From Acidihalobacter yilgarnensis (GTDB lineage Bacteria; Pseudomonadota; Gammaproteobacteria; DSM-5130; Acidihalobacteraceae): 64,000 nt of DNA. Under the pieces are notes generated by a model. It searched no databases, was not told the DNA's origin, and saw only the letters and a program-made list of their open reading frames with translations. Shown here in pieces: positions 5,143 through 57,794 of the stretch. The position numbers and the translations under genes were made by a program. Location: contig NZ_CP017415.1 of assembly GCF_001753245.1 (NCBI RefSeq), forward strand, positions 1,640,501-1,704,500, written 5' to 3'. Numbering within the stretch: the stretch's first letter is position 1; each line of letters starts with the position of its first letter.

Positions 5143-8100
5143 TCACACCGGGCGTGACGGTGGTGGGTGATAGGCGGCGGGGTGGGGCTGCAGCAGCAGG
5201 CGGTGGCGCAGCGCGCCGGCCTCGCCGGCAGTCGCCTCAATGAGCAGGTGCATGTCGTTGCCGGCGCTGGTGGCCACGGGTACGCCGTCGCGGTAGAGCA
5301 CGCGATGACCGGATTGCGGCGCGACGCGCTCGCCAGGGGTGACGATGCCGGTGAGATTGAGCGGATCGGTCGTGGCCAAGGCGATCAGTTCGCCGCCACC
5401 GGGTCGGCGGCGTATCTCGCGCAGCGCGGCCACCGCCTCCGGCAGGGCGTACTGTTCGCCCGCGAAGCCTTCCACGAAGCGCCCGCCGCGCAGCTCGCCG
5501 CGCGCCTCCAGGCGGCGGAAGGCATAGAGCAGCGCACGCCAGTCGGGCAGACCTTGCTCGCGCTCCAGCAACTTGCGGAATACCACACCATAGCGGCGCA
5601 GCAACACGCGGGCGATCTGTTCGGCGTGGGTATGCACCGACTCCGCCGCGCCGCGCGGCGCGCGCAGCAGCGACCAGCGTCCCGCGGCGGCCAGTGGCGC
5701 CGCACCCTGGACCCGACGCGCGCGCCGTCGCTGCACCTGACGCAGCGTGATCATCGCCCGCAGTCCCTGGAAGCCGTCGGCGGTGGCAAGCCCGGCGGCA
5801 ACCAGCTCGCCCAGGGCTTCCTCAAGCTGGCTGCGCAGCAGGCCGGCGTCGCTCAAAAGATCCTCGAAGAAGCTCGCGCCGGCGCTGGCCAGCAGCGCGT
5901 GCACGCGGCGTGCGCCGTCCGAAAGTCCGGCGAGGCGATCTTGCGGCCAGCGTGCGAAGTGCTGCCAGGCCGGCAGCCCGGCACGGGTGATCAGCGACAG
6001 CGGCGTGGTGCGGACCGCCGGTTTGCGCCGGCGTCCGGGTTTGCCGCCGGCCGGTGGCTGCAGACGCAGCCAGCTCAGTTGGCCGCTGCGGCACAGGGCG
6101 TCGAGCGCGTCGCCCCAGTAGGGCTGGATGCGCGTCGGCAGAATGTCCGCCTCCCAGCTGGCCGCTGGCAGGTTCAGGCCTTCGAGCTGCGCAACCCGCT
6201 GCAGTAGCGCGGATTCGCCCTCACCGGGGTCGTCCAGACCCTGCCAGTGGAATAGAAACCGCATGAAATCGGCCGGACTGACTGGCTCGATCTCGCGGCG
6301 CAGCTGTTTGAGCGTGTAGCGATGGATACGCGCCAGCAGGCCGCGCTCGCACCATTGTTCGTCTATCGTGTCCGGCTCGAAGCGACCACGTATGGCGAAG
6401 CCCTCGGCTTCCAGTGCGGCGAGCGCCGTGTCGACCGCATTCGAAGGCAGGGACAGCGGCGCGGCCAGTTGCGAGACACTGATCGGGCCCAGGCCTTCCA
6501 GGCGGCTGCGCACGAGTTCGCGCAGGGCCTCGTCGGCATCGGTAAAGGTTTCGTCGCCGGCCGGCTCGATTGGTGGGTTCTCGGTGGTGTCTGGCAGCAC
6601 TGTGCGCCAGCCACGCAGGCGCTCGGCCGCGACCCACAACCGACCCGCGGGCGCATCGAGTGCGGTGGCGCGCTGCGTTCCGGCAAGTACCTCGAAATAG
6701 GTCCGCCAACCGGGATCGGCCTCGTGTTCCGTCAGGGCTCCGAACACGACGAGGGCATCGTGCAGCTCGTCGGCGTTGCGCACCAGCGGCCAAGCCTCGG
6801 CGCGCACCTGCGCGATCGCGGCGGGGTCCAGCCGGCCGATTTCGCTAGCCGATTGCGGGTCCATGTGGCGGCGCTGCTGCACGGCGAGGACGCGGCGCTC
6901 CTCGGCGGGCGCGTCGTCTAGGAAGGCGTAGGGCCGGGCGTTGAGGATTTCTAGGGCGAGCGGTGAAGGCGTGGCGGTCTCGCGCGGGACGATCTCGACC
7001 GTGCCGGCCTCGATGCCGGCGAGCAGCCGCCGCAGACCGTCGATGTCCATCAGCTCGTGCAGGCAGTCGTACAGCGTCTGCGCGACCAGCGGGTGCTCGG
7101 GCACCTCGCGTTCGCCGGCAAGGTTTTCGGCGCAGGCGAGCTGGTCGGGGAAGACCACCGCGATCAGGTCCTCGGCGTCGCTGCGCTGAAACTGCGGCGG
7201 CTGCCGTCGCCCGGCACGGTTGCGCGGCACGGCCAGTGCGGTGTTGGCGACCCAGCGCCAGCGCGTGCCGAACATGGGCGCGGCGAGCAGGGCTTGCACC
7301 AGCACGCCCTCGGCGGTTTCGGGTTTGAGATAGCGGGCGGGTTCGTCGAGCGGAAAGCTGTGTGTGGGCCCGAGCGAGAGGACGATGCTGTCCTCGCTGG
7401 CGGCAGCCTGTAGTTCGAAGTTGAAGCGGCGGCAGAAACGCTTGCGCAGGGCCAGCCCCCAGGCGCGGTTGAGGCGCGAGCCGTAGGGCGAGTGGATGAC
7501 CAGATGCTGGTCGCCAAGCTCGTCGAAGAAGCGTTCGAATACCACACGTGTCTGGGTGGGCAGCAGGCCGAATGCGGCGCGTCCGGCGGCCAGATATTCG
7601 ACCAACTGTTCGGCGGCTGCGGATGGCAGCCCGAGGACGTCGCGAGCCTCGCGCAGCGCGCTTTCGGTGCCTTGAGCAAGCAGGGCGTCGAAGTCGGCGC
7701 GCAGTGCGGATACCGATTGCGATAGCTCGTCGCTGCGCCCCGGCGCCTCGCCGAACCAGAAGGGGATGTTCGGCGGCTGGCCGTGGGCATCCTCGACGAA
7801 TACGCGTCCCTGTTCGATTTTGAGCATGCGGTAGGCGGTATTGCCGAGCTGGAATACGTCGCCAGACAGGCTTTCAAAGGCGAAATCCTCGTTCACCGTG
7901 CCGATGAACAGCCCTTCGGGTTGGAGGATGACCTGGTAATCGAACTGGTCGGGGATGGCGCCGCCGTTGGTGAGGGCGACGAGGCGCGCGCCGCGTCGCG
8001 CGCGTAGCACGCCGTGAACCGCATCGCGGTGCAGATACGCGCCGCGTCGGCCGCGACGGGTGTGGAAGCCCTCGGCAAGCATGCGCACCACCGCGTCGAA

Positions 8101-37598: not shown

Positions 37599-39038
37599 TT
37601 ATTTGTCTGGTGAGGTGTCTTGTATTCCCCAGGACGTATGGAAGCTACCGCTCCGGTCAAGTCGCTCATAGGTGTGGGCGCCGAAATAATCGCGCTGCGC
37701 CTGGATGAGATTGGCGGGCAGTCGGGCGCTGCGCCAACTGTCGTAGTAGGCCAATGCAGCGGAAAAGGCCGGCAAGGGAATACCACCTTGCGCACCCTGA
37801 GCCACTACAGCGCGCAGGTCGGATTCCAGTCCTCCAAGGCGTTGGGCGATGGCTGGAGAAAAAATGGGATTGGTCATGTGCGCACCGTGTTTGTAGGTCT
37901 CGGCGAAATGCTCGAGCAGACCGGCGCGAATGATGCAACCACCTCGCCAGATACGCGCGACGGTGGCGAGCGGGGTATCGTAACCATAGGCTGTGTTCGC
38001 CGCGGCGATGAGGTGCATACCTTGCGCATAGGATAGGGTGATCGCGGCTTCAAGCGCGCCTGCCACGCGCGCCTGCAAGGTGTCCGGTGAGGTCGAGAGG
38101 GGGCCGGGGAGTAGACGCGAAGCCAATTGACGCTCTTCGTAGTAACCCGAGAGGCCACGAGCGCTGACTGCGGCATCGATTACAGGTGTCGGTACACCCA
38201 GATCGAATGCCGCTTCACTGGTCCAGCGACCGGTCCCTTTCTGCCCCGCCTTGTCTCGAATACGGTCGAGCAGGGGACCTGCGCCGTTATCATCCGGCTG
38301 GATCAGGATGTCGGCGGTAATCTCGATGAGATAGGACGACAACGGGCCTTCACGCCAGGATGCGAACAGGTGGTGCAGATGCGCGTTGTCCAGGCCGCCG
38401 CCCCGGTGCAGCAGGTCGTAAATTTCGGCGATGAGTTGCATGAGGGCATATTCGATGCCGTTGTGTACCATTTTCACGAAATGGCCGGCACCTCCGCTGC
38501 CCATCCAGGCCACGCACGGTGCGCCATCGGACGCGACGGCGGCAGCCGGTTCGAGAAGTGGGCGGATGTGATTCCAGGCAGCCGCTTCGCCGCCAGGCAT
38601 CATGCTTGGTCCATGACGTGCGCCGGATTCGCCTCCGGAAACACCCATGCCGATGAAATGCAGTCCCTGATCCGACAGGCGACGTAGTCGGCGCTCGGTA
38701 TCGGGGTAATGAGAATTGCCACCGTCGATGATGATATCGCCGGCACGTAGATGTTTTTCGAGCTGATCCAGGGCGCTGTCGACGACGCCGGCGGGTACCA
38801 ACATTAGGACAATACGTGGAGTGCCGAGTGATCGGCTGAAGGTTTCAAGATCGGCGCTGCCGATAGCCAGTCCGGGTTGGCCGAGTTCGCTAGCGGCGCG
38901 TTGTGTGAAGCCTTCGGCCTTGCGTGGGTCCGGGTCGTAACCGGCTACGCGGGCACCATGGCTCGCAAGATTGAGGCCGAGATTCGCGCCCATGACACCT
39001 AGGCCAACGACGCCGATGTCAAATGGTGAAGTCGCCAT
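37599..39038 (-). CDS. gnd: 6-phosphogluconate dehydrogenase, decarboxylating
   Basis: This 479-residue pentose-phosphate enzyme oxidises 6-phosphogluconate to ribulose 5-phosphate and CO2, reducing NAD(P)+. The N-terminal dinucleotide fold has GLGVMGANL (about 11-19). The family signatures are IIDGGNSHYPDT near residues 98-109, GMGVSGGESGARHGPSMMPGG near 131-151 (given as landmarks), and KMVHNGIEY near 190. The all-helical C-terminal domain includes RDKAGQKGTGRWT. The length is that of the long dimeric form. The gene is intact although the adjoining zwf is destroyed, so 6-phosphogluconate must come from another source, such as a second zwf or a gluconate route. Confidence 0.95.
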   Translation of the reverse strand: MATSPFDIGVVGLGVMGANLGLNLASHGARVAGYDPDPRKAEGFTQRAASELGQPGLAIGSADLETFSRSLGTPRIVLMLVPAGVVDSALDQLEKHLRAGDIIIDGGNSHYPDTERRLRRLSDQGLHFIGMGVSGGESGARHGPSMMPGGEAAAWNHIRPLLEPAAAVASDGAPCVAWMGSGGAGHFVKMVHNGIEYALMQLIAEIYDLLHRGGGLDNAHLHHLFASWREGPLSSYLIEITADILIQPDDNGAGPLLDRIRDKAGQKGTGRWTSEAAFDLGVPTPVIDAAVSARGLSGYYEERQLASRLLPGPLSTSPDTLQARVAGALEAAITLSYAQGMHLIAAANTAYGYDTPLATVARIWRGGCIIRAGLLEHFAETYKHGAHMTNPIFSPAIAQRLGGLESDLRAVVAQGAQGGIPLPAFSAALAYYDSWRSARLPANLIQAQRDYFGAHTYERLDRSGSFHTSWGIQDTSPDK

Positions 39039-39161: not shown

Positions 39162-40676
39162 TTACTTGGGTAGGGTGATCGCGGTAAACAAGGGCATTTT
39201 ATCGCGCAGGATCAGAATCGGTATTGGACGGCCAGCCGGTGCCTCGCGCACTAGGCGATTGAGCTCGGTTGATGAGCTGACGCGGTGACGGTCGAAATCA
39301 AGAATGATATCGCCAATCTGGAGGCCGCTTTGGGCGGCCACGCCATTCGGGTTCATGGCCTTGATGACCACTGCATCGTGTTTGAGTCCGAGCTCGCCGA
39401 GTTGATCGTGCGGGATTGTCTCCGTGGCAATGCCCATGCGGCCATGCCCATTTTCGACTGGCGCTTTTTCGCTGGCTTGTTTCAGTTGCTGCTCGTTCAA
39501 TTTCCCGATCTTGACCTTCAGGGTCATGTGTTTCCCGTCGCGCAGAATTTCGACCGGGACCACGGTGCCGATCGGTGTGCTGCCGACGAGCGGTGGCAAG
39601 TCGCCGGAACGCTTCACCGGCTTGCCGTCGAAATCGAGAATGATGTCGCCGGACTTGAACCCAGCCTTCGCGGCAGGGCTATTGGGTTCGACCTGAGCCA
39701 CCAGGGCGCCGATCGGCTGTTGCAGGCCAAAGGACTGTGCGAGCGACTGATCCATTCCCTGAACCATGACGCCGAGCCAGCCGTAACTCACCTTGCCGTG
39801 TGCCTTGATCTGATCGATGACGTCCTTGACGATATTGATTGGTATCGCAAAAGACAGCCCCATGAAGCCGCCGGAATTGGTATAGATTTGCGAATTGACA
39901 CCGACGACCTGGCCTTGGAGATTGAGCAGCGGGCCGCCGGAATTGCCTGGATTGACCGCCGCGTCAGTCTGGATGAAGGGCACGTAGTTTTCATCCGGCA
40001 GATTGCGCGAGAGGGCACTGATGATGCCCTGGGTCGCGGTGTAATCGAAGCCGAAGGGGTTGCCGATGGCCAGAATCCACTGACCGACCTGCAGCTGGTT
40101 GGAATTTCCTAATGGCAACGTGGGCAAGTCTTTGGCGTCAATCTTCAGTAAAGCAAGGTCGGTTCGCTTGTCCATGCCGATGACCTTGGCCGTGTACTCA
40201 TGCCTATCCAGCAGACGTACTTTGAGCTCGGTGTCGCCGACGACGACGTGCCGATTGGTCACGATATAGCCGTTCGACGAGATGATGAAACCGGAGCCGA
40301 GAATTCGCTCCTTGCTCTCGAATGGCTGGTCGAAGGGATTGTTTGGCCCGAAAAAGTGCTTGAAGAATTGGCGGAACGGACTGTTAGGCGGCAAATCAGG
40401 CATGGCCTGTTGTTGCTGTTGCTGCTCACTCGCGCCGCTCTTGATGATGCGTACACCGGTGATGCTGACGACCGCAGGGGCTGCCTTGTGAACCAGCTGC
40501 GTAAAGTCCGGCAGGCCGCTCAGTTGAGGGGCCGTGGCTGTGCTCGATTGCGCTGCAGACGGCGCATGGCTGCTGTCCGAGGAATCCTGGGCACAGGCCT
40601 GAGTGGTGAGCGCGAGCAGCGCGACGAGCGAAAGGGATAACCAGCGGCGGGTCTGATGGATATTGGTATGATTCAT
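39162..40676 (-). CDS. HtrA/DegP-type periplasmic serine protease
   Basis: This 504-residue envelope quality-control protease has an N-terminal export signal (about 1-29). The signal ends ALTTQACAQ, so a lipoprotein form is possible but the lipobox is poor. The trypsin-like domain (about 85-290) has the triad: His in YIVTNRHVVVGD, Asp in RTDLALLKI and Ser in NPGNSGGPLL. Two PDZ domains follow (about 295-385 and 415-500). Residues about 88-97 contain a run of Gln (SEQQQQQQAM) in the LA loop region. The gene stands alone, with 380 non-coding bases upstream and a hairpin downstream. I found no convincing sigmaE promoter. Confidence 0.93.
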   Translation of the reverse strand: MNHTNIHQTRRWLSLSLVALLALTTQACAQDSSDSSHAPSAAQSSTATAPQLSGLPDFTQLVHKAAPAVVSITGVRIIKSGASEQQQQQQAMPDLPPNSPFRQFFKHFFGPNNPFDQPFESKERILGSGFIISSNGYIVTNRHVVVGDTELKVRLLDRHEYTAKVIGMDKRTDLALLKIDAKDLPTLPLGNSNQLQVGQWILAIGNPFGFDYTATQGIISALSRNLPDENYVPFIQTDAAVNPGNSGGPLLNLQGQVVGVNSQIYTNSGGFMGLSFAIPINIVKDVIDQIKAHGKVSYGWLGVMVQGMDQSLAQSFGLQQPIGALVAQVEPNSPAAKAGFKSGDIILDFDGKPVKRSGDLPPLVGSTPIGTVVPVEILRDGKHMTLKVKIGKLNEQQLKQASEKAPVENGHGRMGIATETIPHDQLGELGLKHDAVVIKAMNPNGVAAQSGLQIGDIILDFDRHRVSSSTELNRLVREAPAGRPIPILILRDKMPLFTAITLPK

Positions 40677-42011: not shown

Positions 42012-43736
42012 TTATCCCAGGCGCGTGTAAGCGGTCAGTGCGTTGTCTCCGTGTAGGATATCTGCGGGCGCACCATGGGAAACCACGCGCCCATGCTCGA
42101 TCACATAAACCTCATCCATGTGTCGCAAGGCATGAGGGCGATGCGTAATCAACAATACGCTGCGGCCATCCATGGCTGATTCGATGGCGTCGAGTACGTG
42201 CGCTTCCGCATCGGCATCCAAACCTTCGGTGGGCTCATCCAGGATCAGGAATGGAGCGTCCTTGAGCAAAGCGCGGGCGATGGCGACGCGACGCGCTTGT
42301 CCGCCCGAAAGACGTATGCCGGCTTCACCGACGAAGGTGTCATAGCCCGCTGGGAAACCCATGATTTCGTCATGGATGCGGGCTTGTTTGGCCGCAGCCA
42401 TGATCTGCACCTCGTCAGCATCCGGGCGGGCCAACAGCAGATTGCCACGAATGGTGGTATTGAACAGGTGTGTGCGCTGCGAGACGACGGCGCAGAAGCG
42501 GCGTAAATCCTCGCCGCTGTATTCGCGCAATTCGCGCCCGCCCAACATAATACTGCCATCTTGGTAATCCCAAAAGCGCATCAACAGATTGATCAAGGTG
42601 GTTTTGCCTGAGCCAGTAGCGCCAATGAGGGCGACACGATGTCCGGCCGGCAGGGTGAGATCGAATCCGTTCAGTGCCCAGTTGGCATCGTCGGCATAGC
42701 GCATCCGCACGCCCTTGCAGTGCAAATCGGCTGTACTTGGGCGAGGGGCCGGTACTGCCGGGTCCTCGACTTGGGGGCAGGTATCGATGATTTCGAAGAT
42801 GCGCCGGGCGGCGGCGAGTGTTTCGCCCAGATTCTGGAAGGCGAGCGGTAGACCGCTGACGGTTTCGAAACTGGCCATGACGAAGAGGGCAATCATCGCT
42901 AGGTCCGGCCCGCTAAGCATTCCTTGATTGACCAGAGGAATGGCAATCAATAAGGCAAACCAGATCGACAGTTGTGTGATCCACCCGTTGCCGGCGGTGG
43001 CAAGGCCGGTAATTCGACTGAGTTTGTGCTGCTGATCGATTAGCGCATGGGTGAGTTCGCCGACGCGTTCGATTTGCCGCCCAGAGGCGCCGTACACGCG
43101 CAGCTCGCCCTGGCCCTGGATACCATCGACCACGCTAGCCCGTAGTGTCGAACGCACCTCGACGGCTTTTCCGCCTGGTCGCTTGCCGGCACGATGGGCC
43201 AAATAGGGAATGCCGATACCGGAAAGGATAAGGCCCGCCAGATTGATCAGCGCGACGGGGAAACTGAAGACGGCCATGAAACCAAACAGTATGGCCACTC
43301 CGATCAGGGCCGCGACGCTGGGGGCCAGAACGCGCAGGTAGAAATTATCGAGCGTATCGATGTCGGCGCGAATCCGGCTGAGCAGATCGCCGCCACGATA
43401 ATACTGGATACGGGCAGGGGCTAGCGGCTCCAGATGTTCGTAAAACCAGACACGTAGATGGGCGAGTAGGCGGAGGGTGGCCTCATGGGTGACCAGTCGT
43501 TCCAGATAGCGTCCGCCTGTGCGCAGAATAGCCAGTCCACGGATTCCAGCTGCCGGGGTGAAATAGTCCATGCTGACGTGGGCAAGGCCTGCGGCGGCCA
43601 TGGCGGTAATGAACCAACCAGAGAGTGCAAGCAGGCCGATATTGGCCAGCATCACGACCAGGCTCAGGGCAATACCCGCGAGCATCCAGCGGGTATATGG
43701 GGCGAAAAGACCTAATAGGCGGCGCAGGTCTTTCAT
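42012..43736 (-). CDS. cydC: heterodimeric thiol ABC exporter subunit CydC
   Basis: This 574-residue ABC half-transporter, with CydD, exports cysteine and glutathione to the periplasm and is needed to assemble cytochrome bd. Six transmembrane helices (about 10-320) precede the nucleotide-binding domain, with Walker A IGATGSGKTTLINL (about 372), signature LSGGQARR and Walker B FLILDEPTEGLD. Its start overlaps the cydD stop by 4 bases (translational coupling). It is the last gene of the seven-gene unit that begins at cydA, which supports a dedicated role in bd-oxidase biogenesis. Confidence 0.93.
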   Translation of the reverse strand: MKDLRRLLGLFAPYTRWMLAGIALSLVVMLANIGLLALSGWFITAMAAAGLAHVSMDYFTPAAGIRGLAILRTGGRYLERLVTHEATLRLLAHLRVWFYEHLEPLAPARIQYYRGGDLLSRIRADIDTLDNFYLRVLAPSVAALIGVAILFGFMAVFSFPVALINLAGLILSGIGIPYLAHRAGKRPGGKAVEVRSTLRASVVDGIQGQGELRVYGASGRQIERVGELTHALIDQQHKLSRITGLATAGNGWITQLSIWFALLIAIPLVNQGMLSGPDLAMIALFVMASFETVSGLPLAFQNLGETLAAARRIFEIIDTCPQVEDPAVPAPRPSTADLHCKGVRMRYADDANWALNGFDLTLPAGHRVALIGATGSGKTTLINLLMRFWDYQDGSIMLGGRELREYSGEDLRRFCAVVSQRTHLFNTTIRGNLLLARPDADEVQIMAAAKQARIHDEIMGFPAGYDTFVGEAGIRLSGGQARRVAIARALLKDAPFLILDEPTEGLDADAEAHVLDAIESAMDGRSVLLITHRPHALRHMDEVYVIEHGRVVSHGAPADILHGDNALTAYTRLG

Positions 43737-45502
43737 GCGGCACTTCCCTCATAGGCGTGGCATAGACGTGCGTAAAGACCGTCATCAATGATCAGTTGGT
43801 CATGCGTGCCGCTCTCGACGAGCTGCCCGTTGTCGAGGACTAATATGCGATCAGCACGGCGCACGGTTTCCAGCCGATGCGCGATGCTTAATACGGTTCG
43901 TCCTTGCGCGAGACGCTCAACGGCATGGGTGATCAGACGCTCGCTGTCTGGGTCGAGGCTGGCGGTAGGTTCGTCGAGGATGAGCAGCGGGGCATTTTTG
44001 AGGAAGGCTCGTGCCAGTGCGATACGTTGGATCTGACCGCCGGATAAGCCTTGTCCACGGTCGCCGACGCGTGTGTCGTAACCGTGTGGCAACTGGCGGA
44101 TAAAGGTGTCTGCGTGCGCCTGCTCAGCGGCCTCGCGCACGGCGGTCATGTCTGCGCCGGTATTACCCAGTCGGATATTGTCGAGCACACTGCCATGAAA
44201 CAGTGTCGGGCGTTGCGGCACCCAGGCCAGATGACGCAACCAATCGTCGGGTGCGAGGGTATGCAGAGGCATACCGTTCACATAGATCGTGCCTGAATTG
44301 GGCTGCAGAAAGCCGAGCACCAGCTGGATCACGGTGCTCTTGCCCGCACCACTGGGGCCCACCATCGCGACTCGTTCGCCGGCCTCAAGCCTGAAATCAA
44401 GTTTACTGAGCACGGGTACTTCGCTGGTATAGGCGAAATCGACGCACTCGAAGCGTAGGTCGATCGCGCCTTCCCTCGCGAGCGCGCCGCTGCCGCTTGC
44501 CGGCGCCGGAGGCGTGGCCTCCATCAATTCGACCATGCGTTCTGCGGCGCCGATGGCTTCCATGCGGGCGTGGTATTGCGTGCCCATGTTGCGCAACGGC
44601 AGGTAGAACTCCGGGGCAAGCAGCAGCACGAAGAAGCCGGGCAGATAGTGGATGTCGCCATAGAGCAAACGGAAGCCGATGAATACAGCAACCATCGCGA
44701 TACTCAGCGTGGCGAGAAATTCCAGCGCCAACGAGGATAGGAAAGCGACGCGTAGTACCGCCATTGTGCTCTGCCGGTATTGGTCTGAGATGCGGGCAAT
44801 GACCTCAGCTTCGGCACGACTAGCGTTGAATAGTTTGAGCGTGGTCAAGCCTTCGATCATATCCAGGAAGTGGGCGCTCATGCGTGCGAGCCTGCGCCAC
44901 TGTCGCTGATTCAGTCGTTCGGCGCCCTTGCCGATGATGATCATGAAGACGGGGATCAAGGGTGCGGTGAGCACCATGATCAACCCGGACACCCAATCGG
45001 CCGGGAACACGAAAACGAGGATCGAAAATGGAATCAGGGCAGCCAATGCCGATTGCGGGAGATACAGTGCATAGTATTTTTCCAGTGACTCGACGCCATC
45101 CACCAAGGTGTTGGCGAGTTCGCCGCTGCGTTGCGTACGCGTCCATGCCGGGCCGAGCGTCTCCACGCGCTGATAGAGCATCGCACGCAGGTGGCGCTTA
45201 ATGCGCGAGGCGATCGAGAAGGCCGCGGATTCCGAAAACACCGCGACAAGGGCACGCAGCGCGAACACGCCGAGCAGGGCCGCGAGTGGCGTGGAGATTG
45301 CGGCCATTTCCTGTCCTCGGATTGCCACCGCATCGACGATCCGTGCGAGTAGCCAGGCCTGCAGGATGATCAGGAATCCGGCGAGCAGGCCGAGACCTAC
45401 GGTGAGCGTTACGGGAAGCCGGACCAGCGGGGCGTATTGTCTGAGCCAGCGATCCAGGGCCTTGCCGGCTTCGCGAGTTCTGGGGGCTTGCGCGTTCGTC
45501 AT
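43733..45502 (-). CDS. cydD: heterodimeric thiol ABC exporter subunit CydD
   Basis: This 589-residue partner of CydC has six transmembrane helices (about 25-330) and a nucleotide-binding domain with Walker A VGPSGAGKSTVIQL (about 384), signature LSGGQIQR and Walker B LLILDEPTASLD. It comes before cydC on the minus strand, as in most genomes. It lies 21 bases after the stop of the sigma54 activator gene, so regulator and exporter are probably on one transcript. Confidence 0.94.
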   Translation of the reverse strand: MTNAQAPRTREAGKALDRWLRQYAPLVRLPVTLTVGLGLLAGFLIILQAWLLARIVDAVAIRGQEMAAISTPLAALLGVFALRALVAVFSESAAFSIASRIKRHLRAMLYQRVETLGPAWTRTQRSGELANTLVDGVESLEKYYALYLPQSALAALIPFSILVFVFPADWVSGLIMVLTAPLIPVFMIIIGKGAERLNQRQWRRLARMSAHFLDMIEGLTTLKLFNASRAEAEVIARISDQYRQSTMAVLRVAFLSSLALEFLATLSIAMVAVFIGFRLLYGDIHYLPGFFVLLLAPEFYLPLRNMGTQYHARMEAIGAAERMVELMEATPPAPASGSGALAREGAIDLRFECVDFAYTSEVPVLSKLDFRLEAGERVAMVGPSGAGKSTVIQLVLGFLQPNSGTIYVNGMPLHTLAPDDWLRHLAWVPQRPTLFHGSVLDNIRLGNTGADMTAVREAAEQAHADTFIRQLPHGYDTRVGDRGQGLSGGQIQRIALARAFLKNAPLLILDEPTASLDPDSERLITHAVERLAQGRTVLSIAHRLETVRRADRILVLDNGQLVESGTHDQLIIDDGLYARLCHAYEGSAA

Positions 45503-45523: not shown

Positions 45524-46927
45524 TCAGCCGGATTGTCGTTGGAGTTGGTATTTCTGCATGCGATAACGCAGGGTCTCGCGAGTGGTGCGCAGTGCCCGCG
45601 CGGTTGCTGAGACATTGTAATCGTGTTGCTCCAGTGCAGCCTCGATGACGCGACGATCCATGTCATCCAAGGCGAGACTGCCGTCCAGCGGCAGGCAAAT
45701 GTGCGGCGTGGATGGCGCACCGGGGCGGTTGGGAAATTCAGCGGCCGTCGGCGGCGGGCCCAGTTGCAACCACTGAGCCGAAAACGTGCCGTGCTCGCTC
45801 AGCAGGACGCTGCGTTCGATGACGTTGCGTAATTCGCGAACATTGCCCGGCCAGTGATGCGCCTTGAGACGCGTCATGATGTGCGGAGGGATCTCGCGAA
45901 CCCGGCGACCGGCCTTGGCATTGAACTCCGCGACGAAGGCCGGTACCAGTTCGTCGAGATCCTCCGGACGCTCGCGTAAGGGCGGCAATTCGATCTGAAA
46001 GACGCTTAGACGATGATAAAGATCGGCGCGGAAGCGCTCATCGCGGACATGTTCCGCCAGATTGCGGTGGGTGGCAGCGATGACCTGCACGTTGATGCTG
46101 ATTTCCCGATCTCCGCCCAGACGTCGAATGTAGCGTTCCTCGATGGCCATGAGCAGCTTGGCCTGCAGGTCGGGGTCCAGTTCGCCGATTTCGTCGAGGA
46201 ATAGCGTGCCACCGTCGGCTTGTTCGAAGAGTCCACGATGGCGGCTGCGGGCGCCAGTAAAGGCGCCGGCCTCGTGACCGAACAGCTCGGACTCGATCAA
46301 TTCACGGGGTAACGCGGCGCAATTGAGTTGTACCATGGGGCCGTCAGCGCGCGCGCCGGTGTGATGCAGGATACGCGCGGCAAGCCCCTTGCCAGACCCG
46401 GTCTCGCCCATGATGAGCAGGGTGCTGAAGGGCGCGCGCGCAAGCCGTTCGAGGAGTTCTCGAACTTGGCGGTTGGCTTGGCTGTTGCCGTACATGGCCT
46501 CCGGTGTGTAGCGGGCGGAACCCTCGCGTTGTTGTTGATCCAGTCGACGCTGGGCACGGGCACTGCGTGCCGCACCAGCGACCACCAAGTCGAGCCGGTC
46601 GCGGTCGCAGGGTTTTTCGAGGAATTCGTGTGCGCCCAAGTGCAACGCTCGTACGGAGTCGGGCACGCTGCCGTAACCGGTCAGCAGCACCCATTCTGAA
46701 TGGATGGCGGCCTTGCGAGCATCGGCGAGCAGGTCCAGACCGTTGCCGTCGGGCAAACTCATATCGGATAGGACGACCAGGGGATCGAGTTGATTATCGA
46801 ACAGGCAGCGGCGCGCCTCCGCGGCCGTCGTAGCCAGCGTGACCTCCCAGTGTTCGCGCTGAAAATGGCGGGCCAGTTCGTTACCCAGCAGCGTCTCGTC
46901 CTCGATGATCAGCAAGGTCTCGGGCAT
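45524..46927 (-). CDS. NtrC-family sigma54-dependent response regulator
   Basis: This 467-residue activator has a receiver (about 1-120) with EDE at 10-12 and phospho-acceptor Asp55 in VVLSDMSLPDGN. The AAA+ domain (about 145-375) has Walker A GETGSGKG, the sigma54-contacting loop GAFTGA in HEAGAFTGARSRH, and Walker B LFLDEIGELD. The C-terminal Fis-type helix-turn-helix (about 420-462) reads NVSATARALRTTRETLRYRM. It should activate RpoN promoters in response to the adjacent kinase. The intact GAFTGA loop and the perfect RpoN site upstream of cydA make its own operon the obvious target. The kinase gene ends 72 bases upstream. Confidence 0.93.
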   Translation of the reverse strand: MPETLLIIEDETLLGNELARHFQREHWEVTLATTAAEARRCLFDNQLDPLVVLSDMSLPDGNGLDLLADARKAAIHSEWVLLTGYGSVPDSVRALHLGAHEFLEKPCDRDRLDLVVAGAARSARAQRRLDQQQREGSARYTPEAMYGNSQANRQVRELLERLARAPFSTLLIMGETGSGKGLAARILHHTGARADGPMVQLNCAALPRELIESELFGHEAGAFTGARSRHRGLFEQADGGTLFLDEIGELDPDLQAKLLMAIEERYIRRLGGDREISINVQVIAATHRNLAEHVRDERFRADLYHRLSVFQIELPPLRERPEDLDELVPAFVAEFNAKAGRRVREIPPHIMTRLKAHHWPGNVRELRNVIERSVLLSEHGTFSAQWLQLGPPPTAAEFPNRPGAPSTPHICLPLDGSLALDDMDRRVIEAALEQHDYNVSATARALRTTRETLRYRMQKYQLQRQSG

Positions 46928-46999: not shown

Positions 47000-48559
47000 T
47001 CAGTTGTCACCCGGTCGCAGACCGCAGGGCAAGGTGAGACGTGCGCGGGCGCCACCTTCTGTACGATTGCTCAAATGCAGTTGTCCGCCGCAATCGAGCG
47101 CGAATCGGCGTGCGGTGGCAAGTCCTAGTCCGGTGCCGGCCGGCTTGTCGGAAGCAAAAGCGCGCGGGCCGGAGCGCAGCAGGGCACTTGAAAAGCCGGG
47201 ACCATGGTCGTCGATCGTAATGACGATCAGTCCCTCTGCGCGATGGGCTCGAACCATTACGCGTTGCGCGTGATGGCCCGTGCTTGCTTCGCAAGCATTG
47301 CTGAGCAGGTTCAGCAGCGTATGGCGGAATGCGGTTTCCGGCAGTAGGCAACTCAAGCCTTCCTGCGTCTCGAACACGATGCGCAGTTCGGATCCATAGC
47401 GAAAGCGCAATAAGGTGCCGAGGCCATGCAAGGTGTCGCCGATGTCGACTTGGCGGGAAGGCTCTGGGCGGTGACGTGCACGGGAGAGATGCGTGTTCAA
47501 TGTGCTGACCAAACGGTCTATTTCGTTACCGATCAAGATGATGCGCTCGTGGAATTCGGGATCGGAGCATTCGGTTTCGAGGTTGCTTAGTGCGAGGCGT
47601 ATGCCCGCCAGTGGATTGCGCAGGTCATGCGCAAGGCTGGCGGCGACTTCGCCGGCTGCCGCCAGGCGCTCTGCGCGGGTCAGGGCGGCTTGGGTGAGAA
47701 ACAGCGTACGGCTGGCCTCGTCGATGGCTTCTGAGAGCGCTTGTTCGCGCAGGGCATGCTGGTCTTCCAACAGCCGCAGGCGGGCGACCAGTTGGTTATA
47801 GCTCGAAAAAAGCGGGTGTAGCACCGGGGCAACACCGGTCTCGTCCAGTGGGCGGTATTCGCGCCCTGCCAGCGCGGTCAATAAATCAGCCAGGCGGCTG
47901 AGCGGTGCGACCAAGCGGCCCTGGAGCGCGCTGAGCAGGGCAATCACGAGTAGCGGGAATGCGGTCAATAATGCCAAGGCGAGCTGTAGCGCGCGTCCGG
48001 CGTCTTCGCTGACCAGTTTCAGCATCGGTACGCGTGCCCGATCCTCTTCCTCAGCGGCTTGGTGCAAGAGCATCAGGGCATGATTCAGATGGATCGACAG
48101 CGCAGGTTGATCGAGTTCGTGCTGGGCGGCGCGCAGATGCGTTGGGGTGTCCGGCGCCAACCATTCATGTCGTCGAGCGAGTGCGTGAAGTTCCGTTCTG
48201 AGCGAGGGACTGATGGTTTGTTTGCGGGTGATATCGTGCGTGAGTGTGCTTGAAATGACCTGTAGCGCGGCGAGATTTCGGGCTTGTTGGTAAAGCGGAT
48301 CGAATCGCGTGAGGCCATGATGGATGAGAAATACGAGAATCGCCATGGCGCAGACGAATAAGGTAGTCGACAGCGTGACTGGCAGCCACAATGGCTGCAT
48401 GACCAGTCGCCTGAGTGCGTGGCTGGGACTACGAATCAGCATGAAACGTTCTCGTGTCGGCGGGGGATGTAGGGTGGATAATCCGCTGACCGCCGGTAGA
48501 GGTGGGAGTTCCCGCGGCCACACTTCATGTCCGCTGGGTGAGGGTTGCCGCGTTTTCAT
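47000..48559 (-). CDS. membrane sensor histidine kinase (NtrB/DctB-like)
   Basis: This 519-residue kinase is the partner of the sigma54 activator. Transmembrane helix 1 is at about 56-80 and helix 2 at about 192-214. A periplasmic region of about 110 residues between them, rich in helices and His, has no recognised ligand fold. A HAMP-like linker follows, then a coiled segment, HisKA with the phospho-His in SLAHDLRNPLAGIRLALSN, and an ATPase domain with NLLSNACEAS, DDHGPGF and GTGLGLAT. I use ATG 48559, whose ATGA overlaps the previous stop by 4 bases; a Met at 48442 would remove 39 residues of low-complexity N-terminus. Proximity to cydAB suggests that it senses respiratory state. Confidence 0.9.
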   Translation of the reverse strand: MKTRQPSPSGHEVWPRELPPLPAVSGLSTLHPPPTRERFMLIRSPSHALRRLVMQPLWLPVTLSTTLFVCAMAILVFLIHHGLTRFDPLYQQARNLAALQVISSTLTHDITRKQTISPSLRTELHALARRHEWLAPDTPTHLRAAQHELDQPALSIHLNHALMLLHQAAEEEDRARVPMLKLVSEDAGRALQLALALLTAFPLLVIALLSALQGRLVAPLSRLADLLTALAGREYRPLDETGVAPVLHPLFSSYNQLVARLRLLEDQHALREQALSEAIDEASRTLFLTQAALTRAERLAAAGEVAASLAHDLRNPLAGIRLALSNLETECSDPEFHERIILIGNEIDRLVSTLNTHLSRARHRPEPSRQVDIGDTLHGLGTLLRFRYGSELRIVFETQEGLSCLLPETAFRHTLLNLLSNACEASTGHHAQRVMVRAHRAEGLIVITIDDHGPGFSSALLRSGPRAFASDKPAGTGLGLATARRFALDCGGQLHLSNRTEGGARARLTLPCGLRPGDN

Positions 48560-48870
48560 TCCCGAGAATGGTTATCGGCTTTTTGCCGGCGATATGCGAG
48601 CCGGATCAAGAGTGTGAAGCTGAACACAAAAAAAGCAGCGGCTAGCCAGATCAGCATCGGCGGCAACCCAAAGATGCTATCGACTAAAATGACTCCCAGT
48701 AGTGGGCCAGAGAGAAACAGTGCGGGTAGGCCCAGAGGCGATAGTCTGCGTAACAGCCCCAACGTCCTGAGTGGGTGTGTGTGATGGTTGTCTATGGGTG
48801 GGGAGGGCATTGTTTGCTCGATTGGGGCGCACGGCGGCCGAGGGACGAACCTCGATCGCCGCGTCGTCAT
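48556..48870 (-). CDS. small two-helix membrane protein within the cyd operon
   Basis: I do not recognise this protein (104 residues from ATG 48870; 84 residues from ATG 48810). After a Pro-rich, His-containing N-terminus come two transmembrane helices (ALFLSGPLLGVILVDSIFG and MLIWLAAAFFVFSFTLLIRL) and a basic tail (AYRRQKADNHSRE). It starts 15 bases after cydB and overlaps the kinase gene by 4 bases, so it is certainly in the operon. It could be an accessory oxidase subunit (a CydX or CydZ analogue, though CydX is about 37 residues with one helix) or a partner of the sensor kinase. Confidence 0.7.
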   Translation of the reverse strand: MTTRRSRFVPRPPCAPIEQTMPSPPIDNHHTHPLRTLGLLRRLSPLGLPALFLSGPLLGVILVDSIFGLPPMLIWLAAAFFVFSFTLLIRLAYRRQKADNHSRE

Positions 48871-48885
48871 GGCTCCGTGATAGTT

Positions 48886-49923
48886 TCAGTGGGCGTAGGC
48901 TGCCATCTTGTTGATGCGTGCCCGGAAAACCCAGAACTGATACCAGTTGTACATCAACATCACCGGGATGAATCCGCCAACTGCGAGGGTAAATGCGACC
49001 AGCGAGTTCGAAGGATTGGCCCCATCGTAGATGGTCCATGTGCCGGGCACCAGCCAGGGGTACATGGTTGCCATCATCCCGCCCCACATCAGGACGATGA
49101 GCGTGGCCAGCCAGAGCATGGCGCGCATGTCGTTTTGCCGTGTTGAGGCCAGGCGCATCTTGAACGCGGCATATACAATCACCACACCCAAGAGCAGCCA
49201 AACCCAGGCGTAAGGACCGGTCCATTTGGCAGCGGCCCAGGGGAAGGTGATCAGACTCCAGATCAGAGTCACCACCACGGCTGCTAGAGCAAGATAAAAA
49301 TTGGCGGCAACCCAGCTACCCGCTTGCTGATAAGTTGAGCAACGGCGTTCGAAACGGGCTCGGATGTACAACCCACCGGCGAGCGAGGCGGCGACCACGG
49401 CACCAACACCAGTCCAGATACTAAACGCGCTCAGGAAGCGTAGATCGCCACCGACGTAGTTGGGTACCATCGTATGACTGAGTGGGAATCCCTTGAGAGC
49501 CGCGCCGAGCGCCATACCGGCGAAGAAGGTCGCGCTCAGGCTGCCGAGGCCGAATCCCCAGTCCCAGAAGCGCTTGCTGGCACTCGAATGCACTCGAAAT
49601 TCGAGTGCGACGGCACGGATCATGATGCTCAGCAGCGCGAACATCAATGGGATCATCAGATAATGGAAGGCAGACCCATAAACCAGCGGAAAACTGCCGA
49701 AGATGATGCCGCCGGCGACGACCAGCCAGGTTTCGTTGGCATCCCAGGTACCTGCCATCGAGGCCATGATCGCGCCACGCTCATCCTCGTCTTGCACAAA
49801 CAGTGAGAAGATACCGGCACCAAGATCAGCGCCGTCGAGGATGATGTAGAGCATGAAGCTCAGACCCAGGGCAATCCACCAGATAAATGACAGTTCGTTT
49901 TGTATCGTGGATAGGCTTTGCAT
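48886..49923 (-). CDS. cydB: cytochrome bd-type ubiquinol oxidase subunit II
   Basis: This 345-residue inner-membrane subunit II has eight to nine transmembrane helices. It shows the family N-terminus (WWIALGLSFMLYIILDGADLG, given as the landmark DGADLGAGI near residue 30) and the WDANETWLVVAGG motif near residue 60. The length is closer to the CioB/short CydB type (about 340) than to E. coli CydB (379). It pairs with CydA encoded 33 bases upstream. The complex reduces oxygen to water with quinol and does not pump protons. Confidence 0.93.
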   Translation of the reverse strand: MQSLSTIQNELSFIWWIALGLSFMLYIILDGADLGAGIFSLFVQDEDERGAIMASMAGTWDANETWLVVAGGIIFGSFPLVYGSAFHYLMIPLMFALLSIMIRAVALEFRVHSSASKRFWDWGFGLGSLSATFFAGMALGAALKGFPLSHTMVPNYVGGDLRFLSAFSIWTGVGAVVAASLAGGLYIRARFERRCSTYQQAGSWVAANFYLALAAVVVTLIWSLITFPWAAAKWTGPYAWVWLLLGVVIVYAAFKMRLASTRQNDMRAMLWLATLIVLMWGGMMATMYPWLVPGTWTIYDGANPSNSLVAFTLAVGGFIPVMLMYNWYQFWVFRARINKMAAYAH

Positions 49924-49956: not shown

Positions 49957-51399
49957 TTAGTAGACCGGGCGTACATATTCGGGGTGTGCCTGATCGTCAC
50001 TCGGACGTTCAAGATGCCCAAGCGGCTCGTGTCCACCCTCGATCACTGGGCTCTCCATATCCGGGCCTTTGCGGATGACCTTGGCGAAGAAATACCAGGC
50101 GCCGCCCCACACGAGAAGCTCGAATACCGCGAAGCAAACGAGCCAGAGAATTTCGGAGCCGACGCTCATTTTGCTTACGCCAGCCGAAGTCTTCATCAAC
50201 CCGTAAACCACCCAGGGTTGGCGTGCGATCTCACGTGTCCACCAGCCGGTCCAGATGGCGGCATAGGGCAAAAACGCACTGAATACGAGGATGCGTAAAT
50301 ACCCTCGGTGCGAGTGGGCTGTCTGTGAATCGAGGCGGCCTCGCAGGATCAGATAGGCGCCCCACAGCGCAACGATGAATAAAAAGAATCCGATCGCGAC
50401 CATGACTCTGAAGGAATAGAACGGGAGTAGTACCGGGGGACGGTCTGCGGGTTTGAACTGATCGAGCCCCGTTACCTTGCCGTTGAGCGTGTGTGTTTCG
50501 AGTAGGCTGAGGACATGCGGAAGGGTGATGGCGAAGTCGTTCTTGCCGGCGGTGTCGTTCGGCCAGGCTATGATGTGCCAGCCAGAATTTACCGAACCAT
50601 TCGAGTTGTAGGTGTGATAATGACCCTCCATCGCCGCAAGTGCCGCCGGTTGCGCCTGTGCGACTACGCGCCCGAGGCCGTCGCCGAGATAGATCTGTAA
50701 GGGCGTGACGAACAACAGCGCGATCAGTGAGTACTTGAGCGAACGCTGGAATAGTGCGCTATTGCGGTTCCTGAGCATGAACCACGCCGAAATGCCCGCG
50801 ACGAAGAACAAGGCCAATTCGACGGCTGCTATCCACATATGCGGGAAGGCGAAGATGAAATCCGGATTCAGGATGGCCTCGACCCAATTGTGGACCATGA
50901 AAATTCCATGCTGGAGGGTGACGCCGGTTGGCGTTTGCATCCAGGAATTGGCAACCAGAATCCACATCGCCGAGAGGCTGGATGAGAGCATGACGTTGAA
51001 GGTCGCGAAGAGATGCATCCGTTTGCCGATCTTGCCCCATCCAAAGATCATCAGGCCTACGAACCCGGCTTCGTACATGAATGCGGTAATGGTTTCGTAG
51101 CCTAGTATGTTGCCGAAAAATGGCCCTGCTGCCTGCGAAAAAGGCCCATAGAGAATGCCGAAGGCCATTTCCATGGTGACGCCGGTGGCGACGCCGGCGC
51201 CGAAATTGATGATGAACAGTTTTTCAAAGAATCGAGTTAGTCGATACCAGTGTTCATCGCCCGTCCTGACCCATCGCCACTCAGCGATAAACAGCAGAAG
51301 CGATAGACCGATGGTGAGTGGCGGGTAGAGGATATGCATGCTGGTAATCCATGCGAAATCCAGCCTGCTCAGCAGAACCGAAAGCGAATTTTCGAGCAT
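49957..51399 (-). CDS. cydA: cytochrome bd-type ubiquinol oxidase subunit I
   Basis: This 480-residue subunit I carries the b- and d-type haems. Probable haem ligands are the N-terminal His in MHILYPPLTIGL, the His in HMWIAAVELALFF and the Met in FYSFRVMVAIG. The quinol-loop region is short and the usual GRQPW motif reads ARQPWVVYG, both more like cyanide-insensitive (CioA) than E. coli-type CydA. I start at ATG 51399 (MLENSLSVLL), with GGAG upstream; an earlier Met at 51432 would overlap the predicted RpoN promoter's transcribed start region. It is the first gene of the cyd unit, and the promoter at 51439-51453 leaves a leader of about 28 bases. Confidence 0.94.
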   Translation of the reverse strand: MLENSLSVLLSRLDFAWITSMHILYPPLTIGLSLLLFIAEWRWVRTGDEHWYRLTRFFEKLFIINFGAGVATGVTMEMAFGILYGPFSQAAGPFFGNILGYETITAFMYEAGFVGLMIFGWGKIGKRMHLFATFNVMLSSSLSAMWILVANSWMQTPTGVTLQHGIFMVHNWVEAILNPDFIFAFPHMWIAAVELALFFVAGISAWFMLRNRNSALFQRSLKYSLIALLFVTPLQIYLGDGLGRVVAQAQPAALAAMEGHYHTYNSNGSVNSGWHIIAWPNDTAGKNDFAITLPHVLSLLETHTLNGKVTGLDQFKPADRPPVLLPFYSFRVMVAIGFFLFIVALWGAYLILRGRLDSQTAHSHRGYLRILVFSAFLPYAAIWTGWWTREIARQPWVVYGLMKTSAGVSKMSVGSEILWLVCFAVFELLVWGGAWYFFAKVIRKGPDMESPVIEGGHEPLGHLERPSDDQAHPEYVRPVY

Positions 51400-51438
51400 T
51401 GGCGTGCAACTCCATGGCTTTGACGTGCCCAATGGAGA

Positions 51439-51453
51439 GCAAGTGATGTGCCA
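51439..51453 (-). promoter_or_regulatory. sigma54 (RpoN) -24/-12 promoter of the cyd operon
   Basis: On the minus strand the sequence reads TGGCAC ATCAC TTGC, an exact match to the TGGCAC-N5-TTGC core. Transcription should start near 51427, about 28 bases before the cydA start. The downstream operon encodes an NtrC-type activator with an intact GAFTGA loop. The spacing and match are seen directly; function is inferred. Confidence 0.85.
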
Positions 51454-51504
51454 TCACGCCAAACGCACTGGCAGCGTCGATTGCTGGGGGCAGAACACGA
51501 ATTG

Positions 51505-51543
51505 GGTGGTGGATATCAACCGATTATGGGGATATCCACCACC
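51505..51543. promoter_or_regulatory. 13-bp perfect inverted repeat, candidate enhancer for the sigma54 activator
   Basis: GGTGGTGGATATC (51505-51517) and GATATCCACCACC (51531-51543) are exact inverted copies separated by 13 bases. The centre lies about 97 bases upstream of the predicted cydA start of transcription, the usual distance for an upstream activator site. It could also fold as an RNA hairpin after ctaB, but there is no T-run. Confidence 0.65.
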
Positions 51544-51565: not shown

Positions 51566-51637
51566 GTGGTATCAGTGGTATCAGTGGTATCAGTGGTATC
51601 AGTGGTATCAGTGGTATCAGTGGTATCAGTGGTATCA
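51566..51637. repeat. eight perfect tandem copies of GTGGTATCA
   Basis: A 9-bp unit GTGGTATCA (TGATACCAC on the minus strand) is repeated eight times without a mismatch. The last three bases, read on the minus strand, are the ctaB stop codon TGA, so the array starts exactly at the end of ctaB and extends towards cydA. The unit resembles the inverted-repeat arm at 51505 (GTGGATATCA) with one base missing. The array is likely to vary in copy number by replication slippage. Confidence 0.97.
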
Positions 51638-56843: not shown

Positions 56844-57794
56844 TTAGTTAGCGTGCTTAAGGAATTCTTCTGACTGCATGTTCTCAGTCAGTGCATTCGG
56901 TGTCGGGTAGACCTTGCCAGCCTTGGCAGCCTTGATGACTTGAGTGAAAAGGCCGGTCTGCACATCGGAGAAATACTGTGTTTTATGGTTGATATTGACC
57001 GTGGGCTGTGCGTATTTTTCAAAATCGGTATAACTCAGGTGGGTGTTGCTTTTTTGCACTTTGGCCACCCAGGCATTGAACTCCGACTGGCTGACCGCCT
57101 TGGTCTTGAATTGCATCCAGGAGAATCCGCCACCACTGAGTGCTGCCGAAAAGCCGTGGTATTCGCCTGCATGGGATGCTAGGAGACTCTGCTTGGTTCT
57201 CATGCCCGGCATGATGTAGATCTGTCCGACCAACTGCGGGATGAAAAAACCGTTCGTCACCGAGGTGGATGTCAGTCGAAAATTCACTCTGGTGTGTGTG
57301 GGGATGACCAGTTCGTTCGAGCTTGCGATATGCAGCTTGGGGTAGACAAACAACCATTGCCAGTCGGTTGTGATTACATCGACTTCAAGTGGGTCTGCTC
57401 CGGGTTGCGTCTTGGAGGTCAGGACGGTCGGATTGTAGGGATTGACTTCATGAATGCCGATGTAGGAGTAGTAGCCCAGTACGGCCACGATGAGTATTGG
57501 TACTCCCCAAACAATGACCTCAAGCACATTGGAATGCGTCCAGTTGGGGTCGTACTTGGCCTTGGTTTTGGCATTTGCGCGATAACGCCAGAGGAACCAG
57601 ATCACCATCAGCGTCGTCGGGATGACGATTGCGAGCATGATTGAGACATCGAGGATCAGGTAGTGCAACTCCATTTCGCTGATTGGCCCCTTGGGATTGA
57701 AGAGCCAGAAGTGTTGGTTGCTGCACCCCCCCAGGAATAGGAGCGGCATCAGCGCTAGATAGCGGAGTGCGCCTGGGAATTTCTCTCGGGACAT
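56844..57794 (-). CDS. cyoA: quinol oxidase (bo3-type) subunit II
   Basis: This 316-residue subunit II has a lipoprotein signal (LMPLLFLGGC), two transmembrane helices (about 40-65 and 85-108) and a periplasmic cupredoxin domain (about 125-270). The CuA ligands are absent: the segment LVGQIYIMPGMRTKQSLLAS has no CxxxC, so the enzyme takes electrons from quinol rather than cytochrome c. A COX-aromatic-rich C-terminal extension (SEFNAWVAKVQ, SYTDFEKYAQPT) is typical of CyoA. ATG 57794 is supported by GAGAGGATC upstream and gives the intact lipoprotein signal. It is the first gene of the cyo operon. Confidence 0.94.
   Translation of the reverse strand: MSREKFPGALRYLALMPLLFLGGCSNQHFWLFNPKGPISEMELHYLILDVSIMLAIVIPTTLMVIWFLWRYRANAKTKAKYDPNWTHSNVLEVIVWGVPILIVAVLGYYSYIGIHEVNPYNPTVLTSKTQPGADPLEVDVITTDWQWLFVYPKLHIASSNELVIPTHTRVNFRLTSTSVTNGFFIPQLVGQIYIMPGMRTKQSLLASHAGEYHGFSAALSGGGFSWMQFKTKAVSQSEFNAWVAKVQKSNTHLSYTDFEKYAQPTVNINHKTQYFSDVQTGLFTQVIKAAKAGKVYPTPNALTENMQSEEFLKHAN

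Follow-up and report, generated by a model that had tools for sequence, protein, structure and literature searches.

Control of the cytochrome bd oxidase genes by ArcA, FNR, RoxSR or CydR is not known to involve sigma54. These regulators have the same target genes as those predicted for the response regulator described here. The closest described arrangement is the cyd operon of Acidithiobacillus ferrooxidans (first gene AFE_0956), in which a sigma54 promoter, TGGCACAGAGATTGCT, has been mapped by 5′ RACE and a gene for a sigma54-dependent regulator, AFE_0957, is predicted to adjoin the operon, according to Moinier et al. 2017 (PMC5506826). The locus that we describe likewise has a predicted sigma54 promoter and a neighbouring gene for a sigma54-dependent regulator, but the At. 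ferrooxidans operon differs in also having a sigma70 promoter and in binding RegA (PMC5506826). The same kind of sigma54 two-component regulators has been surveyed in 2025 in the class Acidithiobacillia (PMC12194929), and the survey describes an AtoC/AtoS group, reportedly restricted to most of the sulfur oxidizers, which may correspond to the kinase–regulator pair discussed below; in its main text there are no words beginning with 'cyd'.

Sigma54 control of a cyd operon is therefore already known. The original prediction for this DNA had called the wiring unusual, a description in need of qualification, since a sigma54 promoter of a cyd operon had been mapped before (PMC5506826). A circuit of kinase, regulator and dyads like the one described below is absent from the accessible text of PMC6606698, PMC10164946, PMC3916325 and PMC4626219, and among the open-licence papers listed by our literature searches none was recognisable as describing it by title or opening of the abstract; subscription papers mostly fall outside that collection.

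The cyd operon and its linked regulators

The window, as the term is used here, is the whole stretch of 64,000 nucleotides of Acidihalobacter yilgarnensis DNA that was analysed. The operon contains the following genes, in order of transcription:

49957..51399, minus strand: cydA, cytochrome bd oxidase subunit I (PF01654, 2e-146)
48886..49923, minus strand: cydB, subunit II (PF02322, 5e-70)
48556..48870, minus strand: orf104, small protein, no Pfam or NCBIfam match
47000..48559, minus strand: sensor histidine kinase (HK), with HisKA and HATPase domains (Pfam, alignment and model)
45524..46927, minus strand: NtrC-type response regulator (RR), predicted promoter activator, with REC, Sigma54_activat and HTH_8 domains
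43733..45502, minus strand: cydD (TIGR02857, above cut-off)
42012..43736, minus strand: cydC (TIGR02868, above cut-off)

All seven genes run in one direction with gaps of no more than 72 nt between the reading frames as listed; the start of HK is uncertain, lying either at 48559 or at an ATG at 48442, in which case the gap before it is 113 nt. The listed cydA frame opens at an upstream TTG (51432), and most homologues align from its residue 12. The CydA and CydB families (PF01654 and PF02322) place the oxidase in the cytochrome bd group, with CydB scoring 114.6 against the equivalog TIGR00203, below the cut-off of 117.3. The product of orf104 is partly conserved in the congeners L172 and L173 (62–67% identity over 43–56 aa) and is possibly an oxidase accessory protein. 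The model of HK (pTM 0.39) has an all-helical N-terminal half, and among the 50 PDB matches listed by a structure search the titles are mainly those of kinase cores such as ZraS.

The RR has a conserved phospho-acceptor aspartate, an intact GAFTGA loop and a Fis-type HTH, and is thus of the NtrC type; both the domain matches and the alignment bear out the earlier proposal that the operon encodes an activator with the loop and the Fis-type HTH. It is like members of the NtrC and AtoC families in its REC domain, its AAA+ domain with GAFTGA, and its Fis-type HTH, but it lies below the curated cut-offs for AtoC and NtrC (TIGR01818), scoring 349 of 714 and 339 of 559 respectively, and we have rejected its assignment as an equivalog of either on these NCBIfam cut-offs. 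The recognition helix reads TRETLRYR, and the form [T/S]RETLRYR is present in 22 of 25 RR orthologues (L183, L185 and L187 vary) and in none of 16 other activators, while GAFTGA is found in 23 of the 25 (L184 and L185 vary); the loop of the L185 orthologue (genome G052) reads GAFTDA. The orthologues form one clade (SH-aLRT 100), apart from the paralogues of the same genome and from the activators at loci L057 and L059, which are long branches in the regulator tree.

The predicted sigma54 promoter and tandem dyads upstream of cydA

Three elements lie between cyoE and cydA:

51438..51453, minus strand: sigma54 −24/−12 promoter TGGCACATCACTTGCT, an exact consensus match, present in 5/5 family members and within a three-genome footprint
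51508..51521, minus strand: promoter-proximal dyad GGTTGATATCCACC, centre about −87, 0 mismatches to GGTNNATATNNACC
51527..51540, minus strand: distal dyad GGTGGATATCCCCA, centre about −107, 2 mismatches

Positions 51453–51439 on the minus strand read TGGCAC-ATCAC-TTGC, exactly the TGGCAC-N5-TTGC element originally reported before cydA and the sole exact match within the window; the GG-N10-GC core and the −24/−12 consensus are those of a sigma54 promoter, and the genome encodes RpoN (PF04552, 1.7e-69). Counting from the −12 C at 51439, we predict a +1 at 51427, which is 28 nt 5′ of the cydA ATG at 51399; the original figure of about 28 bases before cydA is correct for this predicted leader and incorrect for the element, which ends 39 nt 5′ of the ATG. 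Extended by the next T (TGGCACNNNNNTTGCT), the 15-mer has one match in the window as against 0.03 expected from window shuffles. However, there are 11 exact matches to the 15-mer genome-wide versus eight for the reversed control, so that the motif alone proves nothing, and as evidence by itself it was ruled out. Another exact TGGCAC-N5-TTGC is found on the plus strand 573 bp past the end of the window (L176:2073), where no ORF of at least 100 aa is listed 3′ on that strand in the 4-kb stretch covered; it is perhaps a chance occurrence or belongs to a small RNA.

Upstream of the promoter are two tandem dyads, GGTnnATATnnACC, 19 bp apart, which the original prediction had overlooked. Lying in tandem 5′ of the promoter, near −87 and −107, they have the placement of candidate NtrC-type activator sites. 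Two dyads followed by a sigma54 site at 50–160 bp occur in one place in the window, the cydA upstream region, and the pattern of dyads plus promoter is found in none of 60 dinucleotide-shuffled windows, the dyad consensus having been defined after inspection of these same upstream regions. In an alignment with two congeners the dyads and the −24/−12 blocks are among the invariant stretches, and the rest of the intergenic DNA has diverged. Six further single dyads match exactly in this genome, and we have rejected them as regulon members, none of them having a second dyad and a sigma54 site; one of the six, inside cyoA (56987–57000), has no partner and no sigma54 site. Further upstream, eight copies of a 9-bp tandem repeat, GTGGTATCA, overlap the 3′ end of cyoE (51566–51637) and are absent from the aligned upstream regions of the two congeners.

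Overlapping the dyads is an inverted repeat with perfect 13-nt arms (51505–51517/51531–51543), a feature that raises the question of whether this DNA is an enhancer or instead a cyoE terminator or RNA element. The repeat has the position for it, between cyoE and cydA, together with perfect complementarity and a 13-nt loop, and our terminator scan could not report it because the scan takes loops of 3–8. Yet no T run follows the repeat on the minus strand, and the tandem dyads are kept in L014 and L174, where cydA has no preceding CyoE match, and we consider a terminator or RNA element extremely unlikely. The dyads are more readily read as a predicted enhancer.

Conservation in the Acidihalobacter family

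An RR orthologue is present in each of the five genomes of the order that were examined, and all five have the arrangement cydAB-HK-RR-cydDC, the sigma54 promoter and the tandem dyads. In the four relatives (L172, L173, L174 and L014, the last an Acidihalobacter MAG) cydA and cydB are followed by HK, RR, cydD and cydC, with tandem dyads upstream and a sigma54 site 53–108 nt before the ATG of the cydA gene adjacent to HK-RR; the dyads of L014 and L174 are at 31–32 bp spacing. The original prediction was to fall if relatives with the operon lacked the site, and the site is kept in all five genomes with cyd-HK-RR. In L174 (genome G015) three cydA copies lie in a row beside HK-RR; the second, lying just upstream, shares the same sigma54 site and has only one dyad, and the third is cut by the end of the stretch compared, with its upstream region outside the comparison.

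These comparisons bear on the possibility that the sigma54 site is fortuitous, with cyd transcription starting at a sigma70 promoter or reading through from the upstream cyo operon. The motif is, as noted, hardly commoner across the genome than its control, and At. ferrooxidans cyd does have a second promoter of the sigma70 type (PMC5506826). A chance site, however, is countered by the footprint in congeners and by conservation in 5/5 family members; sigma70-like matches between 41800 and 52700 number zero, versus 4.3 in shuffles; and at L174 there is no CyoE match in the 16-kb stretch covered and the sites are nonetheless kept. It seems very unlikely that cyd is expressed in this way, and we favor transcription from the predicted sigma54 promoter.

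Dyads at cydA and the regulator elsewhere in Acidithiobacillales

Each of the 12 genomes reached through their cydA loci, 11 of which are Acidithiobacillia, has one clear RR orthologue (56–67% identity, E 7e-121 or better), with the next best match in these genomes at E 1e-82 and 40% identity. At L138 the HK-RR pair lies between secB-gpsA and genes for squalene synthase, hopene cyclase and HpnI/J/K, and the other ten loci resemble L138 over HK-RR and, to varying extent, over its neighbours. HK-RR was matched beside cydA at none of 30 Acidithiobacillia cydA loci (L057 and L059 gave weaker matches, to an activator alone); despite the pair being elsewhere, most cydA upstream regions of these 30 loci carry dyads.

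We have compared 105 distinct cydA upstream regions (111 before identical ones were merged; the partial loci L078, L079 and L246 were left out of the counts). Tandem dyads are present in 5/5 regions from the Acidihalobacter family and in 31/43 close cydA copies from RR-bearing Acidithiobacillales, all 43 coming from genomes with a detected RR orthologue (partial in G011/G408); they were not found before the other 12 of these 43. Among close cydA copies from genomes in which no RR orthologue was found the count is 0/46, plus 0/1 in genome G384 (0/47), and it is 0/7 for distant cydA genes. The L057-type copies (L057, L059 and L262) lack dyads (0/3) and have the sigma54 site (3/3). Scores for the GG-N10-GC sigma54 element, with weights set by hand, follow a similar division: the 43 copies score at least 15 in 30 cases and at least 13.4 in 42, with 12 between 13.4 and 15 and L242 at only 12.2, and the 46 regions from genomes in which no RR orthologue was found score at least 15 in one case and at least 13.4 in three.

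At the level of whole genomes, 16 of 31 Acidithiobacillales have an RR orthologue, and the strict paired pattern of dyads and promoter is found in 13 of these 16 and in none of the 15 without. All 32 matches to the strict pattern are 5′ of cydA: 27 precede an intact cydA (25 in cydA-holding loci and two clustered with one of these), four, in one cluster, precede a cydA broken by an ISL3-type transposase gene, and one, at a contig end, aligns to the cydA upstream region of a relative; reversed-pattern controls gave no matches. Fisher tests give p values of 2.7e-6 for the 31 genomes, 0.003 inside one genus and 4e-15 for the cydA upstream regions, which are descriptive, relatedness being ignored. 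The broken copy (L214; G398:C1, about 1373500) has a cydA start, three dyads and the ISL3-type transposase gene inside the coding region; its sigma54 site has decayed, the −12 GC reading GT, with a best score of 12.9. Genomes G392, G398 and G399 each have 6–8 CydA-like matches, some of them partial.

Since this cydA clade is likewise missing from 14 of the 15 Acidithiobacillales genomes without RR, the genome-level correlation is in part one of shared presence and hence partly confounded; nor are the genomes independent. The pattern suggests that the RR and this clade of cydA come and go together. The remaining genome, G384, has no RR orthologue and one close cydA, which nests with those of L061 and L085, whose genome has RR. 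The L061 upstream region has one dyad and that of L085 tandem dyads, with a sigma54-like element scoring 16.4; the G384 cydA lacks tandem dyads, and its upstream region reaches a sigma54 score of 11.9 at best. Read from its sequence, G384 is a natural deletion, with the RR absent and the sites gone.

The original prediction that the linked kinase and regulator provide the sigma54 control of cydAB fares well in these comparisons, by which RR appears the best candidate, through both its co-occurrence with the dyads and its recognition helix. The promoter could be real and yet be driven by another enhancer-binding protein, with HK-RR a passenger in the operon. Matches to the sigma54-activator domain number 14 in this genome (the last two weak), so other activators do exist, and in L057 and L059 a cydA sigma54 site without dyads has a different activator-like gene nearby. 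Against this, the dyads track the RR orthologue across genomes, the recognition helix of RR is conserved along with the site, and in L193 and L205 the region upstream of HK-RR itself carries the same dyads; we judge a passenger role unlikely, and take RR as the predicted activator.

The activators near cydA in L057 and L059 (38–42% identity) fall outside the RR clade. From the resemblance of the promoters we infer that AFE_0957 is an activator of the L057/L059 type, and probably a different activator from RR; if AFE_0957 is of this type, RR is excluded as a cyd activator of the AFE_0957 kind by the position of the L057/L059 activators outside the RR clade. L057, L059 and L262 probably belong to another circuit of sigma54 and cyd, distinct from this one and resembling the one in At. 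ferrooxidans.

Regulator loci away from cyd

Of 369 genomes sampled from the class, 20 gave an RR orthologue. At E 1e-100 the RR was found in 0 of 49 genomes, a set that includes no positive genome; elsewhere the same query matched in 12/12, 5/5 and 16/31 genomes, with about 33 first-look candidates scored per genome where more than 33 existed. At two loci of one genus, L193 and L205, HK-RR lies away from cyd and is itself preceded by dyads and a sigma54 site; in L200 these elements precede a gene weakly matching YfdX, and in L197, from an RR-bearing genome, a dyad pair and a sigma54 site adjoin an encapsulin/EncFtn-domain gene (5480–6886). The other 11 of the 15 regulator loci searched have no dyads plus sigma54 site. 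The four positive loci, from three genera, thus tie the dyad to HK-RR independently of cydA.

The neighbours of the pair offer a clue to its history. In L193 and L194 it is followed by a gene for a DegP-type protease, and in L194 by one for 6-phosphogluconate dehydrogenase too. In the window, the corresponding genes are beyond cydC:

39162–40676: DegP-type protease, from 1.3 kb beyond cydC
37599–39038: 6-phosphogluconate dehydrogenase, beyond cydC and past the DegP gene

These shared neighbours suggest an older HK-RR-degP locus around which cydAB and cydDC were later inserted. In L194 a CydB-family gene (6187–7404), with no evident cydA, lies directly before HK-RR and behind TGGCACATGGCTTGCT. 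A single clade for the regulators of both lineages is not rejected (AU p 0.434).

A predicted circuit for cytochrome bd expression

The promoter, the dyads, the gene order, the integrity of the domains, the conservation and the co-occurrence are all present in the DNA as described. They lead us to propose that HK-RR very probably activates E-sigma54 at cydA through the tandem dyads, with positive feedback. In the steps of this model, cydAB-orf104-HK-RR-cydDC would be transcribed from the sigma54 promoter; the operon's own HK would phosphorylate RR; RR would bind the two GGTnnATATnnACC dyads, centred approximately 87 and 107 bp 5′ of the start; and its GAFTGA loop would open the E-sigma54 complex. 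With HK and RR inside the operon, induction should provide positive feedback. In Acidithiobacillales, the orthologous pair would use the same dyads to control several cydA copies in trans. Binding, phosphotransfer, activation and feedback are what we infer from the sequence features.

The neighbours of the pair in other genomes lead us to guess that the pair responds to respiratory or envelope/oxidative stress and does not sense O2 directly. A more speculative history, one we offer tentatively and do not hold to be the probable one, is that a gammaproteobacterial two-component system for envelope/redox stress, already having a sigma54 enhancer of its own, became linked to the bd oxidase independently in two acidophile lineages: in cis in the Acidihalobacter family, where cydAB and cydDC would have been inserted flanking the pair, and in trans in Acidithiobacillales, where the enhancer would have come to lie before a multiplied cydA, the pair residing in a hopanoid neighbourhood. 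The outcome would be a sigma54 regulon serving almost exclusively one terminal oxidase.

For the bd oxidase of bioleaching acidophiles, the proposal names an activator, the sequence of an enhancer and a promoter, in the form of a compact prediction: one regulator, one dyad and one main target. Should the wiring have arisen separately in the two lineages, an old stress circuit would have been turned towards respiration twice, in cis in one lineage and in trans in the other.
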